Shown: positions 36,065 to 44,962, numbered from the stretch's first letter. The stretch: 64,000 nucleotides of DNA from Armatimonadota bacterium (GCA_018268395.1 JAFDWQ010000009.1:186001-250000), one strand, 5' to 3'. Notes: generated by a model from the sequence alone, not told the origin. Translations and numbers: made by a program.

Positions 36065-36084
36065 CCATCGTATTCCGTCTCGTC

Positions 36085-36400
36085 CTAAGCGGCTTTGCGC
36101 TTCGACGCGCTGCCGCCCGCTTCGACGGACAGCGTCACCTGGTGCACGCCGATCGGGATCATGTCGGTCGCCTGCCCCGTGACCGTGTTCACGAACCGGT
36201 AGCCGGCCGCATAGGTGCCCGGCGGCACCGTCACGTCCGTCGAGAGCGTGCCGACGACGAACGCGAAGAAGGCCTTGCTGCGGTAACCGTCGGGCTGCGG
36301 GTTCCAGTGACTGTTCTTCAGAGGCTGAAGAAGCAGTTCCGTCTTAGAGTTGGGAGAATTCGCGCCGGTGCGGAGAAGGCACAGTTCAAAAAGAACGCCG
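36085..36400 (-). pseudogene. Duplicated 3' tail of the orphan-family gene at 37625
   Basis: About 285 bp (36083-36367) are nearly identical to 37619-37905, the last third of the intact orphan-family gene, including the end 'SASKRKAA' and its stop (36085-36087). There is no start: the frame is closed upstream by a stop at 36401-36403. It differs from the intact copy by a few substitutions ('GANSPNSKTELL' for 'GANTPNTKTELL'). The two copies form a direct repeat around the HAF-like gene. Confidence 0.8.
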
Positions 36401-36436: not shown

Positions 36437-36455
36437 GGGGGACGTCACGTCCCCC
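36437..36455 (-). terminator. Terminator hairpin whose loop is the stop codon
   Basis: On the minus strand GGGGGACG-TGA-CGTCCCCC followed by TTTCC. The 8-bp stem encloses the TGA stop of the HAF-like gene in its 3-base loop. Likely intrinsic terminator that overlaps the coding end. Confidence 0.65.
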
Positions 36456-37500
36456 TGACACTGCGGGCCGTTCGCTCCTTTGGAATCAGCACGAACGTCG
36501 TCGGGATACCAAGGAGATGGCCGTAGCCTGCCATCATGCCCCGGTGATTGCTGGCACTGATCCGGGGGGCGATCCAGGCAAGGCCCGCAAAGTCCACGAC
36601 GTTCGTCAGGAATTCGGCCTCGCTCCCTGGTCGCCAAAGGTAGGCGTTGGCGTACCCGTTTCCGTCTGCCATTCCGTAGACAAGCCCATCGCCGAGCAGC
36701 CCGATGAATATGCCATATGACGATGCGGCAGGCCGCGGCCCGAACCACGGTTTTTCTCCGCGCTTCCACAGTGCAGGTTCGTATATCGAGCCGCCTCCGC
36801 GCACGTAGCCCGCGATGGTTCCTGTATCGTCAATGTCGTAAAGGACCGCTTGTCCCGGCAACTTCGATGGCCCGAGCGGATACGGCCCCGATGTGCCCGT
36901 CCAACGCGCCAAATAGGGGTGGCCACTTTGCGTAGTGTAGTTGCCGTAGATCTCCCCAAGGTTGTTCACCGCCAAAGCGCGCGAATCGATACTGTTGTTC
37001 GTGGGCAGGACGACTGGGGGCACAGTGGGTCGCCACAACGTCGCCTGTTCTTGACCCGTGAACTTGCTATAGCTATATCCGACGATCCACCCTTTGTCAT
37101 TGACCTGACAGGGCACGCATCCGTCAAAACCGACCGCAGGTTCCAGGTACCGATAACCCTGTCGTGGCGTCCACGTGATCCCTTGCGACCATTGTCCCAA
37201 TCGCCAAGTGAAGCCCACCGCAAGTTTCGAACTATTAACGTCCCATAAATGCGTGGCCTCGTTCCCATCGCAGGGGCCTGGCCACTCGACGCCACCTTCG
37301 ACGGTATAGAAGTAAGGCACCTTCAGGCCGCCCCACTCACGGTTCCCGACCACGATGCCGCTGTCGCTGATGTCCTCTGCGGCGTCGGAAATGCCGTAGC
37401 CGACAGTAATGACCTTGATCGTATAGGGCCCGTAGGCTTGGGCGGAGGCCGTGACGAGTATGACGGCGAAAAAGGCGGATGTTCGTCGGTTCATGGCCAT
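36445..37500 (-). CDS. Secreted HAF-like repeat protein
   Basis: A 351-residue protein (349 if the second ATG at 37494 is used) with a signal peptide (MNRRTSAFFAVILVTASAQA). It carries the HAF-type pattern repeatedly: 'DISDSGIVVGNREWG', 'VNDKGWIVGYSYS', 'VNNLGEIYGNYTT', 'IDDTGTIAGYVRG' and 'SNHRGMMAGYGHL', each followed by a strand such as 'LWRPT'. This is a propeller-type extracellular protein without the extra C-terminal domain. Its A+T content is a little higher than its neighbours. It lies inside a duplicated stretch: both sides have copies of the tail of the orphan-family gene. Confidence 0.78.
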   Translation of the reverse strand: MAMNRRTSAFFAVILVTASAQAYGPYTIKVITVGYGISDAAEDISDSGIVVGNREWGGLKVPYFYTVEGGVEWPGPCDGNEATHLWDVNSSKLAVGFTWRLGQWSQGITWTPRQGYRYLEPAVGFDGCVPCQVNDKGWIVGYSYSKFTGQEQATLWRPTVPPVVLPTNNSIDSRALAVNNLGEIYGNYTTQSGHPYLARWTGTSGPYPLGPSKLPGQAVLYDIDDTGTIAGYVRGGGSIYEPALWKRGEKPWFGPRPAASSYGIFIGLLGDGLVYGMADGNGYANAYLWRPGSEAEFLTNVVDFAGLAWIAPRISASNHRGMMAGYGHLLGIPTTFVLIPKERTARSVRGT

Positions 37501-37624
37501 TGCCTTTATTGTCGGTACCGCGCATTCTCAAACAAGCGGGCGAGCGGCCGCGAGGCGCTCCCAGAGTGCGGCGAGCGTGGCGGGATCCGGAGGGCGTGCA
37601 TACCGTCCGGCCCCGCCACTCGTC

Positions 37625-38329
37625 CTAAGCGGCTTTGCGCTTCGACGCGCTGCCGCCCGCTTCGACGGACAGCGTCACCTGGTGCACGCCGATCGGGACC
37701 ATGTCGGTCGCCTGTCCCGTGACCGTGTTCACGAACCGGTAGCCGGCCGCATAGGTGCCCGGCGGCACCGTCACGTCCGTCGAGAGCGTGCCGACGACGA
37801 ACGCGAAGAAGGCCTTGCTGCGGTAACCGTCGGGCTGCGGGTTCCAGTGGCTGTTCTTGAGCGGCTGGAGAAGCAGTTCGGTCTTCGTGTTCGGAGTGTT
37901 CGCGCCGGACGAGGTGAAGGTGACCTTGCCGGTTCCGGCTAGGGCGGTCACGGTCACGTTGTCGCCGAGGTACGGAGCGGCCGGAGGCGTGGACGGCACG
38001 GTCCCCGTCGGATTGACTTGGAGGAACTTCACCGCGAGCTGCATGAAGGCGGCGATGTCGGTCGGGTGGTAGGTCTTGCCCGTGACGTCGTCGCGGAACG
38101 TGAGGCCCGACGCATAGGCCTGCCACTGGGCGACCTGCGTGTTGTTCAGCGCCTTGAACGCCCGGGAGCCCTTGCCGAAGTAACTTCGCAACGTTTCTTG
38201 GGCCGTCGTGTTCGGGTTGCGCGGGATGACGTAGGGGGTCAGGATGGTGCCGTTCTTGCTCCGCCGGGCGACGGTGCCCCCGTCTTTCCCTGCGAGGCTT
38301 TCGAAGGCCATGCCGAGGAGGGCCTTCAC
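37625..38329 (-). CDS. Orphan-family protein, uninterrupted copy
   Basis: A 234-residue protein starting at a GTG (38329) with a good Shine-Dalgarno (GGAGG, 6 bases before). The order of conserved elements is a helical N-terminal half ('NPNTTAQETLRSYFGKGSRAF', 'WQAYASGLTF'), 'FLQVNP', 'PYLGDNVTVTAL', 'GKVTFTSSG' and a final beta half ending in a Lys/Arg-rich tail. It is the reference for the interrupted paralogs at 8719-9885 and 45291-46217: nothing is inserted between its 'GDNVTV' and 'VTFTS' strands. No signal peptide is seen. Function unknown. Confidence 0.7.
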   Translation of the reverse strand: MKALLGMAFESLAGKDGGTVARRSKNGTILTPYVIPRNPNTTAQETLRSYFGKGSRAFKALNNTQVAQWQAYASGLTFRDDVTGKTYHPTDIAAFMQLAVKFLQVNPTGTVPSTPPAAPYLGDNVTVTALAGTGKVTFTSSGANTPNTKTELLLQPLKNSHWNPQPDGYRSKAFFAFVVGTLSTDVTVPPGTYAAGYRFVNTVTGQATDMVPIGVHQVTLSVEAGGSASKRKAA

Positions 38330-39044: not shown

Positions 39045-39488
39045 TCACGGCCTACGGTTGATGACCGCCCCCGTTGATGGGTCGAACTGAATGAACTGCA
39101 ACGGCGGCGGCAACCTCCCGAAGTCGCCGTCGAACGTCAGAAGGGTCATGTCCAGTTCGATGGTCGTAGAGGCTATCCAGAGATCGTTTTGGCCGACGTT
39201 CAGTCCTTGTGACGTATTGATGACCTCGAGCTCCGCGTATCGGCTCGCTAGCGGGCCGGGCAGAACCGCAACGACCGTCAGATTGCGCACGAAATGGGCC
39301 AGCGCTTGCCGTTTCGCCGTTCCCCACTTGCTCTTAACCGAGAACGCCTCGACTTCCCCGACGGACACCACGCTCACGACCGGCAAAAATCCGCCTTGCA
39401 CCAACCCCAAGGCGCCGTCGATCGCCTGAAACGCAGTCGACTTGCGGGCCGCATGGATCAAGATGCCTGTGTCGAGCAGGTACGCCAT
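39045..39488 (-). CDS. PIN-domain ribonuclease, VapC-type toxin
   Basis: A 147-residue PIN-domain protein with the four acidic residues of the metal-dependent nuclease site: Asp6 (LLDTGILI), Glu45 (VGEVEAF), Asp102 (QNDLWIAS) and Asp120 (LTFDGDF). VapC toxins cleave tRNA or rRNA when not held by an antitoxin. The gene lies 2 bp after the stop of the upstream 339-residue protein, so they are co-expressed in the usual antitoxin-then-toxin order, but no ordinary small VapB is present. Confidence 0.88.
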   Translation of the reverse strand: MAYLLDTGILIHAARKSTAFQAIDGALGLVQGGFLPVVSVVSVGEVEAFSVKSKWGTAKRQALAHFVRNLTVVAVLPGPLASRYAELEVINTSQGLNVGQNDLWIASTTIELDMTLLTFDGDFGRLPPPLQFIQFDPSTGAVINRRP

Positions 39489-39490
39489 GC

Positions 39491-40510
39491 CTAGCTGATC
39501 TCGCGCAGGAAGGCGTCGACCTCTTGGTCGGTCTCGTCCCCGGGCCAGGCGCCGACGATCCTTGCGAAAGCGCCTGGTTCGGCCTTGCCCACCTGCAACC
39601 GCAGACTAGGCGACCATGCCTTCGGAGTCGCCCGAAAGAGCCTATCGCCCTCGCTTGCCGGGCGAGCCGCATCAGCCCGCACACCGACGACCGCTCCATT
39701 TGCACGGAACGAGGCCATGCCTTCGAGGAGGACGTCTTCACCCAGCCACTGCCGCAGATCTAAGTTGCCGTGCTCCCATGCTCCTCTCACCTTCATGCCG
39801 TCGTCCAGGATGATTTGGAACAGGCTGTCGCTCATTTTCAGCATGTCCAGTCGCCCCACGACCCGAACACGTTGCGGATGGGGGGTTTGGAGCAACATTT
39901 CAGTAGCCCGTTCGATCAAGGGCTGATCGATGACGGCACTGCGGCGGGCTTGGTCGGAGAACGCGAAGCACGCGCTTTCGAGGCCTCTATTGAAGCTACC
40001 ACGGAAGCGTGCGACCCGTTCGAGCATCCCGTAGTCCGCCTTCAGCTCGCTTATGGGCGCCTGGTGGACTTCGTTGAGGACTTGGCCAAGCAGGTCGAAA
40101 GCCGTCCAGTCGGGGTTCAACTTGTCCTCGTCAAAGAGGACGCCCTGTTGGAAGAGCTTCGGGGCCGCATCGCCGAGGGTCGGGCTGCGGAAGACGAGGA
40201 GCGTCTCGCCCTTGTCGGTCTCCTGCCAGGGCGCTTGCTCGAGGTCCCAGATGCTGCTGAGGAAGCGGAACGGCCGGCCCTTGGCGCTGGAGAGGTGGAC
40301 CGTCTTGAGCCGCGTCGCGGCACGGATCGCGTCAGTCGTCTGGCGCACGAAGGCGAGCTGAGCCCCAGGCTTCACGTATTGGCCGTGAAACCCCTCCCCT
40401 CGCACTTTGATCGCGACTTCTTGCGTGGCGTTCGTGACGGACTCCGTTCGGGTCACATTGTACAACTGGGAGGTTACGCTCGCTGGCCAGGCGGCGTAGG
40501 GGTCGGCCAT
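39491..40510 (-). CDS. Large partner of the PIN toxin, possible giant antitoxin
   Basis: A 339-residue protein directly upstream of the PIN gene. The main body (about 1-310) is a mixed alpha/beta protein that I do not recognise. The end, 'VGAWPGDETDQEVDAFLREI', closely resembles the C-terminal toxin-neutralising tail of small VapC antitoxins (pattern W-P-G-D-E-T-D-E-E-...-L). The likely reading is an antitoxin tail fused to a large sensory or DNA-binding body. The ATG at 40510 has AAGGA 5 bases upstream. Function inferred from tail and position only. Confidence 0.6.
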   Translation of the reverse strand: MADPYAAWPASVTSQLYNVTRTESVTNATQEVAIKVRGEGFHGQYVKPGAQLAFVRQTTDAIRAATRLKTVHLSSAKGRPFRFLSSIWDLEQAPWQETDKGETLLVFRSPTLGDAAPKLFQQGVLFDEDKLNPDWTAFDLLGQVLNEVHQAPISELKADYGMLERVARFRGSFNRGLESACFAFSDQARRSAVIDQPLIERATEMLLQTPHPQRVRVVGRLDMLKMSDSLFQIILDDGMKVRGAWEHGNLDLRQWLGEDVLLEGMASFRANGAVVGVRADAARPASEGDRLFRATPKAWSPSLRLQVGKAEPGAFARIVGAWPGDETDQEVDAFLREIS

Positions 40511-40779: not shown

Positions 40780-43674
40780 CTACTTATAATTGTTCTTAGC
40801 GCGGTCAAGGATATTGTACTTTGCATCACGAAGGTCAAACGCTGGCTTAGTGCCCTCCAAGACATCAAGAATCAACTGCGTGATGGTAGGGTTCTCAATT
40901 GATCCGGTAGTATAAGTGATTGCATTTCCATCCAAAATGTCGCGTTCCGCGTGCACGATCTGGTCAGCATCGCATACGACCGCGATATTCGGGTTGTGAG
41001 TAACCATGATAACCTGCCTCCGCATCCTAGCGGACTTGACAGCGGGAACCAACATCGTAGCAATTGTATGATTGTCTAAGTTCTCCTCTGGTTGATCGAT
41101 CACGAGAGGAGTATCGCGACGGTCCACTAACAGGTAAAATACAAGCAGAAGCGTGCCACGTTCACCCGGTGACAGCTTGTCTAGCGGCTTGCCCTGCCAC
41201 CGCAATTCGAAAATGGGCTCTACGTATTCAAGGCTGTAAATGTAATTTAGCACATCGGTTGCCTCAAACCCAGCCTTCAGTTGTGACTCCAAAGAGACGG
41301 GCTTTTCGTCTCCATCTCTGAAGTCGTAATTCAGTTGACGTTCTAGCTCACTAGCAAATGCGAGAATCCCGTTGTCCGTCGACAGGTCAGCACTAGCAAT
41401 AAGCTCGTGCAGTCTTTTTCGCCCTTCATCATCTCCATAGAACGATCCAATGCGACCCTGATGGATAAATCGAAGCAGCCCATCAGCCACTTTCGTGGAC
41501 GTAAAGGTAGCACTTACTTGCAGGCCTTCCGCCTCCGCGAATACGCGGTCGTTTTCGATAAACTCCTGAACCGGCCTGTACAATTCCATGTACCGAGCAA
41601 GCAGTCCCAGTTTGGCCCTCGCAATGTTCCTGCAAATGCCGTCTCGGCGCGCGCGTTCCGCGCGTAAGCTCTCTGGAAGTTGCTCCAACGCCTTGAGTCG
41701 GCCCTCCAAGCCTACCAGACTCTCGGGATCCTCGAGGGAGCCGACGATTGAGGAGCGATCATGTTCCCATTGTCGAAGGGAAGTTAGAAATGATTGGTAC
41801 TTCCTGCCGGGCTCATCTAACTCGAGCCGCTTCAAATCGATTTGCTTGTCGAGTCCGGCAAGTCGCTGAGCTATGGACTCCTCCCTTTCTGGATCCAGCA
41901 TGGACCTGACCTCGGAGAGCTCCTTTGTGGCCGCATCCTTGACGGAAACAAGTGGATCCTGGAGAATTGTCAGTTTGACGATCTCTTGAAGGTTTAAGCC
42001 GAGAGCTGCTGCGTCTTCTGAGGCTTCGGCAGTGAAGCTGGCGAATTGCCTCTCCAAATTCTTCAGATTGCCCTGCAAACGCTCAGCAACCGCCACGCGC
42101 CTTGCTGCTTCCCGCTCCCGAACCTCTAACGCCTGGAAATCGTTAGCTACGGAAGTTCGTTGCTCCCGAAGATCCGCCAACTCCTTGTTAGTCGCCACGG
42201 ATGCCGCCTGAGTTTCCGGATCCACACTTGGCTCTGCAACGGCAGACGGCCGGGCCTGGTCGTGCGCCTCTAGCTCAGATTTGCGATGCTGCAGCAGTGC
42301 TTCCAGACTCGCTCTGAACCTCTCCGAGAGTTGCTCTTCAGTTCCGAAGATCTCACGGTTGGAACTTGCCAACTCTCTTTTTGTAATCTCAATTTCGTCC
42401 GTAGTTGAGCTTGTCAGGAACTCAATAAGCTCTTCCAAAGTGCTACAGTTTAACCTTTCCGCTTCGCTGACATGTGAAAAGATGACGTCTTGCAACTCTT
42501 GATCAAAGGCAGTGTCTTTGGGGTCTGCGCAGATACTTTCAAGAAAAAATTGGGGAATGTACTTTACCGTTTCTGGCTTGTCGATATCTGGTGGTTCAGA
42601 TAGCAGAGCACTTGGCATTGAACCATTCCGCCAATGACAAGTTGCGCGAAACATGGGGCCCAGTTTGCCCTTGGGTTCCAAGAATCGTTTCGATGTTAGA
42701 AAAGCAAACTGGCGTCCCTGTCTACTGTTTCCAAGCAAGGCGGCAACATCCGCCAGGGCGCTTTTGCCAGAACCTTTGTTACCAATTATTGCCACGAGCC
42801 CATGATTTAGTTGGACAACGCCTTCAAACCACTTCACTCCCTCCTTGGCCAGCTCAGTGCGTTCAAATGAAATAGAATCGATATACTTTGTAGCTTTCTT
42901 TTCAACACGTGCGCAACTCGGCGGTTCATCTCCAAGGAATATACGGTCTTCGGGTTCATTGATGAGCTGAAGTAGTCCCGCAAATGAAGGGTCTGCTTTG
43001 ACCCACATCGGGCATTTCGTTGAGTATTGCCTAATATTATGGTTGTCCGAGCATAGAATCAGCGGAAGTGCTCTCCCGATATCCGGAAAGACGTGCTTTC
43101 GGTAGCCCGGGCAATCGTCCAAACGGCCTACTTCGAGGGCATGAATGTACTTGCTTGCTAGGTCCGACTTAACGGCCTGCTTTACGACATCCGCATTTGT
43201 CAGGGCTTCGATGCTGTTTGTCTTCTTGCCCGCATGAACTGTAACAATTCCACCCAGTTCGCGGATGAGCCTGAATCCATCGGCGTATGGGACGTATACA
43301 TGATCGTTGCCCTTGGATTGCACGTCCGCAACTGAGATACCAAGGCCCTGCAACTTGATCCAAAGGTCTTCAAGGTCAATGTCGTCCGGGAAGATACCGA
43401 TATAGTGAACACACTCTGAGCCTCCAAGCTCCGATCTGAGTTCAATTCCAGGCAATACCGTTAAACGTCCTTCACCAGCTTTCTGCATCGCTGAGATGAA
43501 AGTCGTGTCGATGACATGGTGATCGGTCACCGCAACGAGGCGGACTCCATGGTGGGCCAGCCCATCAGCCATATCGTCCGGGGAGACAGTCTTGTCTCCG
43601 TAATCGAAGCTGGCAGGTGAGTGCAGATGAAGATCCCACCTCCTCCAGAGTGAACCGCGTGGGTCATACTTCAT
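40780..43674 (-). CDS. PHP-domain + SMC-like ATPase, candidate anti-phage protein (Ppl/TrlF type)
   Basis: A 964-residue protein. The N-terminal PHP phosphoesterase domain has metal ligands in 'WDLHLHSPASFDYG' (His16, His18), 'AVTDHHVIDT' and 'ILCSDNHNI'. An ABC/SMC-type ATPase follows: Walker A GNKGSGKS (298-305), a long coiled-coil middle (about 425-650), ABC signature LSPGERG (Ser835) and Walker B LVIDQPEEN (Asp860, Glu863). This layout matches the single-gene 'ppl' defence type and TrlF-family ATPases. The gene is clearly AT-richer (about 45-50% G+C in sampled lines) than its surroundings, which suggests recent transfer. Its start overlaps the DUF2130 gene by 11 bp. Confidence 0.82.
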   Translation of the reverse strand: MKYDPRGSLWRRWDLHLHSPASFDYGDKTVSPDDMADGLAHHGVRLVAVTDHHVIDTTFISAMQKAGEGRLTVLPGIELRSELGGSECVHYIGIFPDDIDLEDLWIKLQGLGISVADVQSKGNDHVYVPYADGFRLIRELGGIVTVHAGKKTNSIEALTNADVVKQAVKSDLASKYIHALEVGRLDDCPGYRKHVFPDIGRALPLILCSDNHNIRQYSTKCPMWVKADPSFAGLLQLINEPEDRIFLGDEPPSCARVEKKATKYIDSISFERTELAKEGVKWFEGVVQLNHGLVAIIGNKGSGKSALADVAALLGNSRQGRQFAFLTSKRFLEPKGKLGPMFRATCHWRNGSMPSALLSEPPDIDKPETVKYIPQFFLESICADPKDTAFDQELQDVIFSHVSEAERLNCSTLEELIEFLTSSTTDEIEITKRELASSNREIFGTEEQLSERFRASLEALLQHRKSELEAHDQARPSAVAEPSVDPETQAASVATNKELADLREQRTSVANDFQALEVREREAARRVAVAERLQGNLKNLERQFASFTAEASEDAAALGLNLQEIVKLTILQDPLVSVKDAATKELSEVRSMLDPEREESIAQRLAGLDKQIDLKRLELDEPGRKYQSFLTSLRQWEHDRSSIVGSLEDPESLVGLEGRLKALEQLPESLRAERARRDGICRNIARAKLGLLARYMELYRPVQEFIENDRVFAEAEGLQVSATFTSTKVADGLLRFIHQGRIGSFYGDDEGRKRLHELIASADLSTDNGILAFASELERQLNYDFRDGDEKPVSLESQLKAGFEATDVLNYIYSLEYVEPIFELRWQGKPLDKLSPGERGTLLLVFYLLVDRRDTPLVIDQPEENLDNHTIATMLVPAVKSARMRRQVIMVTHNPNIAVVCDADQIVHAERDILDGNAITYTTGSIENPTITQLILDVLEGTKPAFDLRDAKYNILDRAKNNYK

Positions 43675-44962
43675 CTTCTTCAGGCTCCATCGTACGATCT
43701 GAGCTGTCACGTTCTGACGGGTACTGGAACCCCGGCAACTCAGCCATCTCACTTCCTGCAATCCCCTGCAAGTCCCCTTGCAAGCCCGCCACGCTCGTCA
43801 GCACCCGCTCGATGCGCCGTTCCTGGCGGCGCCACCGTGCAAGGGTCGCGCGCTTTTCGGCGAGCAGCTCTTCGTGCAACTCCCTGAACGGCAACGCGAT
43901 GCCCTCCAGGGTCGACCGGAACTCGGGGCCGGTCATGTAGGCGTAGAGGCGTTCCATCTTCGTCTCGCGACCGGAGGCGCTCAGGCGGGCTTCGGCGGTT
44001 GCCATCAAGCCCTCGCGCAAGGCGACGCCCAGCATCACTGCGTGCGACGGACGCACGGTCCACACCCCGTCTTGCGGCCCGAAATCGCAGAGCCCCTTCG
44101 GAAGGACTTCGCTGACGATCACGGCGACTTCGGCCTTGGCGTCGGCCGCGTCCTTCTTGGCCTTGCCGCACCAGTCGCCTCCCCAGGACTGGGCGCGCTT
44201 CGCTTCCCAGAGGATCGTGCCGACGGGCCGGCCCATGTTGCCGAGGACCCGCTGCAAGATGTCGCCGCCGTACGCCCCCGTCTTCACCGGCTCGATCAGG
44301 TCTTGCGGAAAGGCGGACCTTAACGCCGCTTCGAAGTCAAGCTCCAAAACGTCGCCCTGCGCCTGTTGGGATCCCTGGGTGCCCTTGCGCTTCAGTTCGT
44401 CCGCCTGCTCCGTGAGTTGCCGGATGAGAAGGTCTTTCTCCGCCATCTTCAGACGGTATGACTCGTCCGCGTCCTTCGCCGCCTGCTCCTGGATGCCCAC
44501 CCGCTGCTCGTCCACTTTGCGGGCGATCTCCAGATCGAGGCTCCTCGCCCGCTGGTCCAAGGCGTCCTTCTCCTGGCGCAATCTCAGCTCGTTGGCTTGC
44601 GCCGTCGCCAGGTCCGCTTCGAGCTTCTTGGCCCGTTCCCGCTCGGATTGGATCTCGGGCGCGAGTTCTAGGCGGAGCGCTTCCCGCTCCTTTTCGCGGA
44701 TCGCGAGGCGCTCTTCGGCGACGCGTTTGTCCACCTGCGCCTGGACCGACGACTCCCGCTCTGCAACGGCGCGCTCACGGGCGGCCACTGCGTCGGCCTG
44801 CTCGCGCGCCTTGTCCTCGGCCTCCGCGGCTTTCTTGGCTTCCGCCTGGACACGTGCTTCGGCCTCGGCTTTGACCTTCGCGATCAACGGCCCGGCCAAG
44901 GTCTCGTCGAGCGGGATCTCCACGCCGCAAGACGGACATTTGATCTGACTGCCTTCTGACAC
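43664..44962 (-). CDS. DUF2130 protein, nuclease-like
   Basis: A 432-residue protein starting at a GTG. A zinc finger-like start ('IKCPSCGVEIPLDE') is followed by a long charged coiled coil (about 25-200) and a C-terminal domain with 'GAYGGDILQRV' and 'TILWEAKRAQSWGG'. The spaced D and E-x-K suggest a PD-(D/E)xK-type nuclease core, typical of DUF2130. Unlike the next gene it has host-like G+C. The operon order DUF2130 then PHP-ATPase, with 11-bp overlap, suggests a two-gene system. DUF2130 proteins are often near restriction and defence genes, but their biochemistry is not settled. Confidence 0.82.
   Translation of the reverse strand: MSEGSQIKCPSCGVEIPLDETLAGPLIAKVKAEAEARVQAEAKKAAEAEDKAREQADAVAARERAVAERESSVQAQVDKRVAEERLAIREKEREALRLELAPEIQSERERAKKLEADLATAQANELRLRQEKDALDQRARSLDLEIARKVDEQRVGIQEQAAKDADESYRLKMAEKDLLIRQLTEQADELKRKGTQGSQQAQGDVLELDFEAALRSAFPQDLIEPVKTGAYGGDILQRVLGNMGRPVGTILWEAKRAQSWGGDWCGKAKKDAADAKAEVAVIVSEVLPKGLCDFGPQDGVWTVRPSHAVMLGVALREGLMATAEARLSASGRETKMERLYAYMTGPEFRSTLEGIALPFRELHEELLAEKRATLARWRRQERRIERVLTSVAGLQGDLQGIAGSEMAELPGFQYPSERDSSDRTMEPEEDEV

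Follow-up and report, generated by a model that had tools for sequence, protein, structure and literature searches.

Two overlapping genes on the minus strand of a 64,000-nucleotide stretch of an Armatimonadota genome (JAFDWQ010000009.1:186001-250000 of GCA_018268395.1; hereafter the window, from whose first letter all coordinates are counted) encode a coiled-coil DUF2130 protein and, directly downstream, a TrlF-family ATPase with a PHP domain. We consider it somewhat probable that they form a modular operon directed against mobile elements, in which a constant DUF2130 gene is followed by an exchangeable effector gene, here that of TrlF. This reading draws on related loci, in which, as judged from aligned sequences, one gene has repeatedly replaced another 3′ of DUF2130, with DUF2130 itself staying in place. 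The two genes of the window are arranged as follows.

43664..44962, minus strand: DUF2130 gene, 432 aa, GTG start; CxxC motif, long helix and PD-(D/E)XK nuclease, assigned by PF09903, fold model and invariant residues
40780..43674, minus strand: TrlF-family PHP-ATPase gene, 964 aa, ATG at 43674; NF045780 match of 596 bits for a cut-off of 350; AT-richer than its surroundings
43664..43674, minus strand: 11-bp overlap of the DUF2130 and TrlF reading frames

An initial annotation of the window had described two genes at this place with an 11-bp overlap, and the re-derived coordinates agree, with both genes on the minus strand. The TrlF gene is taken to start at the ATG at 43674; a mechanical list of open reading frames has instead an upstream TTG at 43761. 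As also claimed, the ATPase gene is AT-richer than its partner and surroundings and thus foreign in composition, with a G+C content of 51.3% (54% at third codon positions, GC3), compared to 65.7% (GC3 82%) for the DUF2130 gene and 63.8% for the whole window.

Exchange behind DUF2130 was most evident between loci (designated by L numbers) with closely similar DUF2130 genes. L128, L116 and L106 encode DUF2130 proteins that are 92-94% identical and are followed by TrlF, OLD and AAA_13, respectively. The DNA of L128 and L106 is 90% identical through DUF2130 until approximately 58 bp before the stop codon (in L128), continues with TrlF in the one and AAA_13 in the other, and resumes 90% identity where a type III methyltransferase (Mod) gene begins; in this one well-resolved comparison, the alignment indicates that the downstream methyltransferase gene also stayed during the exchange. 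Similarly, L097 and L096, located in one genome, share 85% DNA identity over a stretch that begins 414 bp upstream of DUF2130 and ends 42 bp short of the DUF2130 stop codon (in L097), and after the break L097 carries TrlF and L096 carries OLD. In quick phylogenetic trees, the partner classes required 21 changes on the DUF2130 tree (mean after shuffling, 23.7), and the four TrlF-linked DUF2130s did not form one clade (approximately unbiased test, p about 1e-44). The DUF2130 of the window is closest (62-63%) to same-phylum DUF2130s with AAA_13 and OLD partners and shares 41% identity with that of L097, while the window TrlF groups with the TrlFs of L097 and L216. Given that the partner was AT-richer than its own DUF2130 in 26 of 30 pairs, the composition step between the two genes is a general one.

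DUF2130 recurs in many bacterial phyla, each time with a defence-type gene of another kind immediately 3′ of it in the loci concerned, and thus resembles a fixed module whose partner can be exchanged. In the same-phylum set, the next gene encodes an OLD-like ATPase, AAA_13/PDC-S06, SIR2 followed by HerA, a metallo-beta-lactamase-fold protein (PDC-M48B) or a 5′-nucleotidase (PDC-S08). The partners match the defence profiles PDC-S06, Old/GajA-like, SIR2, HerA, PDC-M48B and PDC-S08, and the exchangeable partner is probably anti-phage. For 80 DUF2130 loci of GTDB genomes, the tightly spaced same-strand gene 3′ of DUF2130 encoded a Walker-A protein of at least 350 aa in 18/36 cases, compared to 19/310 for control pairs, i.e. 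other tight gene pairs within these 80 loci (Fisher p 1e-10). The odds of finding a large ATPase directly 3′ of DUF2130 were thus approximately 15-fold higher than for other tight pairs, while the tight gene 5′ of DUF2130 encoded a large Walker-A protein in only 2 of 33 cases. Two further partners were observed: in L153:6989-10037 a gene for a Cas4-Cas1 fusion begins 40 bp after DUF2130, and in one DUF2130 clade (L063, L065, L066 and L069) the next gene is always a 5′-nucleotidase of the PADLOC candidate family PDC-S08, as labelled by profile match for L069 and by sequence likeness for the other three.

DUF2130 and TrlF lie side by side only in the window among 291 genomes of the same phylum. 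The initial annotation had proposed searching other genomes for co-occurring DUF2130 and PHP-ATPase genes, and this search revealed the pair, in the same order and on the same strand, in L097 (an uncultured planctomycete; gap +9), L128 (a gammaproteobacterium; gap +14) and L216 (a second genome of the planctomycete sample; gap +37, with the TrlF frame split in two). As the pair recurs in other phyla, the objection that it might have no counterpart elsewhere falls away, and the close coupling claimed for the two genes is found not only in the overlap within the window but also in the close spacing of the recurring pairs. With order, strand and spacing repeated in three further lineages, the adjacency of DUF2130 and TrlF exceeds chance. 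A purely fortuitous insertion, in which an AT-rich TrlF gene landed behind a resident DNA-repair nuclease gene without any functional link, would account for the composition difference between both genes and for the three same-genus genomes with neither DUF2130 nor a TrlF match above cut-off; we nevertheless disfavour it as highly improbable, given that the same arrangement recurs in other phyla and that large ATPase genes are generally in excess directly 3′ of DUF2130. On a Bradyrhizobium plasmid, a more distant TrlF, a toxin-antitoxin-like pair and DUF2130 occur in consecutive order. Sampling of alphaproteobacterial TrlFs yielded nothing at E 1e-60, a result that shows little.

The DUF2130 protein matched PF09903 with 158 bits, well above the gathering cut-off of 26.7; among PADLOC-DB 2.0.0 models nothing better than E 0.035 was obtained, and for NCBIfam no significant match was listed. 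Two features stand out.

44927..44938, minus strand: CPSC (CxxC) motif, residues 9-12; both cysteines (C9, C12) invariant across 72 sequences
43976..44374, minus strand: PD-(D/E)XK nuclease core, residues 197-329, with D234, E253 and K255; assigned by invariant residues, fold model and structure comparison

The D...ExK nuclease-like site ascribed to this protein by the initial annotation is well founded, as D234, E253 and K255 are, like C9 and C12, invariant across the 72 aligned sequences. An AlphaFold2 model based on these sequences (mean predicted local distance difference test score, pLDDT, of 83; nuclease core mostly above 90) displays two short strands around CPSC, a single helix of 174 residues (20-193), an alpha/beta core and C-terminal helices. 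Foldseek matched the model to the Hjc structure 2eo0 (prob 0.97, E 0.009), and VIA-align of residues 197-329 gave Z values of 9.5 for McrC, 8.8 for Hjc and 8.3 for Can2; both methods place the core among the PD-(D/E)XK nucleases Hjc, McrC, Can2 and NucC. Together, alignment and model show DUF2130 as a coiled-coil protein whose PD-(D/E)XK nuclease is intact. The predicted fold and the D...ExK site are common to nucleases of the Hjc/Mrr/McrC type, whereas the CxxC motif and the 174-residue helix that precede the core set DUF2130 apart; the CPSC motif is possibly a zinc site shared by two chains. A literature search found no paper linking DUF2130 (PF09903) or COG4487 to defence or giving its function; preprints and most subscription papers lay outside this search, so that an earlier description is possible.

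The nuclease site also bears on the role of DUF2130 within the locus. DUF2130 might be a regulator or guard, antitoxin-like or activating, that restrains the resident ATPase effector via its coiled coil, with nuclease activity being secondary; in favour of this, effectors are swapped while the upstream DUF2130 is retained, and DUF2130 is the more host-like partner by composition. We consider this role improbable, since the catalytic residues are invariant and since DUF2130 is also found on phage-like contigs that show no evident effector, in some of them next to a gene for DNA polymerase. The contigs concerned are the IMG/VR entries L167, L172, L175, L177 and L180, in which DUF2130 lies beside or near apparent DNA polymerase genes; the polymerase of L167 was confirmed as family A. 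This occurrence suggests a role of DUF2130 in phage replication or recombination, and phages as a possible origin of the bacterial DUF2130 genes.

The ATPase matched the NCBIfam model TrlF_fam_ATP (NF045780) over residues 6-954 (profile positions 1-944). The initial annotation had compared it to both 'ppl' and TrlF-like ATPases. The latter assignment stands; Ppl itself was rejected, as the protein scored 133.9 bits for the Ppl equivalog model NF042955, which has a cut-off of 1000.

42925..43659, minus strand: PHP domain, approximately residues 6-250; weak N-terminal PF02811 match, metal-site residues intact
42760..42783, minus strand: Walker A GNKGSGKS, residues 298-305; motif reading
41155..41175, minus strand: ABC signature LSPGERG, residues 834-840; motif reading

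All motifs of a PHP phosphoesterase joined to an SMC/ABC-type ATPase are present, as had been claimed: DLHLH (14), TDHH (50), PGIELR (75), VHAG (146) and SDNHN (209) for the PHP part, and GNKGSGKS (298), LSPGERG (834), LVIDQPEENLD (857) and VTHN (891) for the ATPase part. By these sequence criteria the protein is a full-length member of the TrlF family, consisting of PHP and a split SMC-like ATPase with intact motifs. The name TrlF derives from the temperature-restriction locus of Photorhabdus, the TRL operon trlR-trlF-trlG, in which TrlG is the operon partner (PMC7554251). The TrlF gene of the window has neither trlR nor trlG (the latter encoding AlbA_2 plus HATPase) as a neighbour, but DUF2130 upstream and P0003/PIN downstream. 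L216 carries a TrlG-like gene, DUF2130 and TrlF in consecutive order.

In several relatives, DUF2130 and its partner are embedded in a type III restriction-modification locus that starts with a DrmD-like SNF2 helicase gene and continues with a TrlG-like or HATPase gene, DUF2130, the partner slot, type III Mod and Res, although individual loci lack some of these genes. L088 has nothing in the slot, which contains AAA_13 in L106, OLD in L107 and L149, an LmuB-like ATPase in L111 and L139, SIR2-HerA in L103, and TrlF in L216 and L128, the latter having Mod and Res as remnants only. Any of SNF2, Mod or Res occurred within the flanks of 18 of the 80 DUF2130 loci. On a contig of a viral database (L236:2-14323), SIR2, HerA, SNF2, TrlF, Mod and Res follow each other in this order without DUF2130.

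Based on these features, the following mechanism is conceivable. DUF2130 would form elongated dimers or oligomers and nick or cut DNA that appears foreign or damaged; a long helix leads to its nuclease site, which could make or hold DNA ends for TrlF and for the other effectors swapped into the slot, possibly in a complex between DUF2130 and effector. The closest mechanistic model for TrlF is Ppl, in which a PHP domain is likewise joined to an SMC-like NTPase, and which is an NTP-inhibited (NTP-gated) 3′-5′ exonuclease on single-stranded DNA that needs 3′-OH ends (PMC12904381); Ppl reportedly consists of one gene only and belongs to another family than the window TrlF. Because the architecture is of the same kind, TrlF may be a nucleotide-gated PHP nuclease as well, kept off by nucleotide binding and freed once infection drains the nucleotide pools, whereupon it would degrade DNA from ends that DUF2130 or the phage had produced. 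In other loci, OLD/Gabija-like, AAA_13 or LmuB-like ATPases or SIR2-HerA would respond to these DNA ends or complexes in place of TrlF, and this would explain why one nuclease gene pairs with many partners. The locus as a whole would then act against phages or plasmids. In Zorya and other modular systems with exchangeable parts, the core reportedly also stays constant while a partner varies, a likeness that we take as a lead only; the modularity of Zorya is the topic of PMC11890865. The components of Zorya presumably differ from those described here, where the constant element is a nuclease gene and the variable one usually a large ATPase.

Several observations weigh against a modular operon. 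TrlF was adjacent to DUF2130 in only 1 of 13 TrlF loci read with their flanks (from Planctomycetota, Gammaproteobacteria and Nitrospirota; some contigs short), in none of the other TrlF loci of the same phylum, in 0 of the 5 nearest plasmid TrlF loci and in 0 of 43 TrlF loci on viral contigs; in turn, many DUF2130 genes of the GTDB loci lack a defence-type or large-ATPase neighbour. As TrlF mostly occurs where DUF2130 is absent, and DUF2130 often has no defence neighbour at all, neither gene needs the other. Queries with SNF2, Mod and Res against the whole window gave no match and thus no sign of hidden copies, which distinguishes the window from the type III restriction-modification loci of several relatives. 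The proposed feeding of DNA ends from DUF2130 to TrlF rests on likeness to Ppl. Moreover, a single peptide pattern and proximity to the query decided which 80 loci were sampled, and the rows are related to each other, so that the p-values are optimistic; outside the window and annotated records genes were called by a simple heuristic script and partner labels were partly sorted by hand.

The diversity of DUF2130 partners, many of them of defence type, together with the prevalence of TrlF without DUF2130, led us to reject a dedicated two-gene DUF2130-TrlF system as envisaged by the initial annotation. The same data could mean that TrlF provides defence on its own, as a single gene, and that DUF2130 is a separate defence gene; the two would then merely gather in defence islands, with the 3′ end of DUF2130 being a frequent point of recombination. 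That TrlF without DUF2130 is the rule, that many DUF2130 genes lack a defence partner and that the related PHP-NTPase Ppl is a single-gene system (PMC12904381) all fit independent genes, but four lineages share order and strand with gaps of -11 to +37, and the excess of large ATPases is confined to the 3′ side; we consider independence rather unlikely, if by far not negligible, and retain the modular operon as the preferred reading.

Downstream of the TrlF gene lies one further unit.

39045-40510, minus strand: genes for P0003 (339 aa) and a PIN-domain protein

P0003, which has no Pfam match, and the PIN-domain protein form a conserved, toxin-antitoxin-like two-gene unit in 4/4 genomes, of which only two have it near DUF2130, and it was therefore excluded as a component of the system. 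A homologous unit is also found 3′ of DUF2130 in L074, with other genes intervening. Further away, a 290-bp direct repeat with 96% identity (36079-36368 and 37619-37908) flanks a gene at 36445-37500. In a search for an empty site, the same-genus genome G106 was found to contain CusA, but as the sequence after CusA is unrelated, insertion borders of the locus could not be drawn.

DUF2130 is a common family for which none of the papers found gives a function. Our broader proposal, held tentatively and with slightly less than even confidence, is that it marks a widespread family of modular immune loci, in which one coiled-coil nuclease makes or recognises a common DNA signal and TrlF, OLD-like, AAA_13 and LmuB-like ATPases or SIR2-HerA serve as exchangeable responders. 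Many of these loci would lie within a type III restriction-modification operon, itself conserved around the slot. The near-identical DUF2130s (92-94%) with differing partners in L106/L116/L128 and L096/L097 represent natural swap sets for this family, and if the nuclease core is indeed shared by many effectors, several defence genes that are still poorly understood (TrlF, OLD-like, AAA_13 and SIR2-HerA) may have one DNA signal in common.

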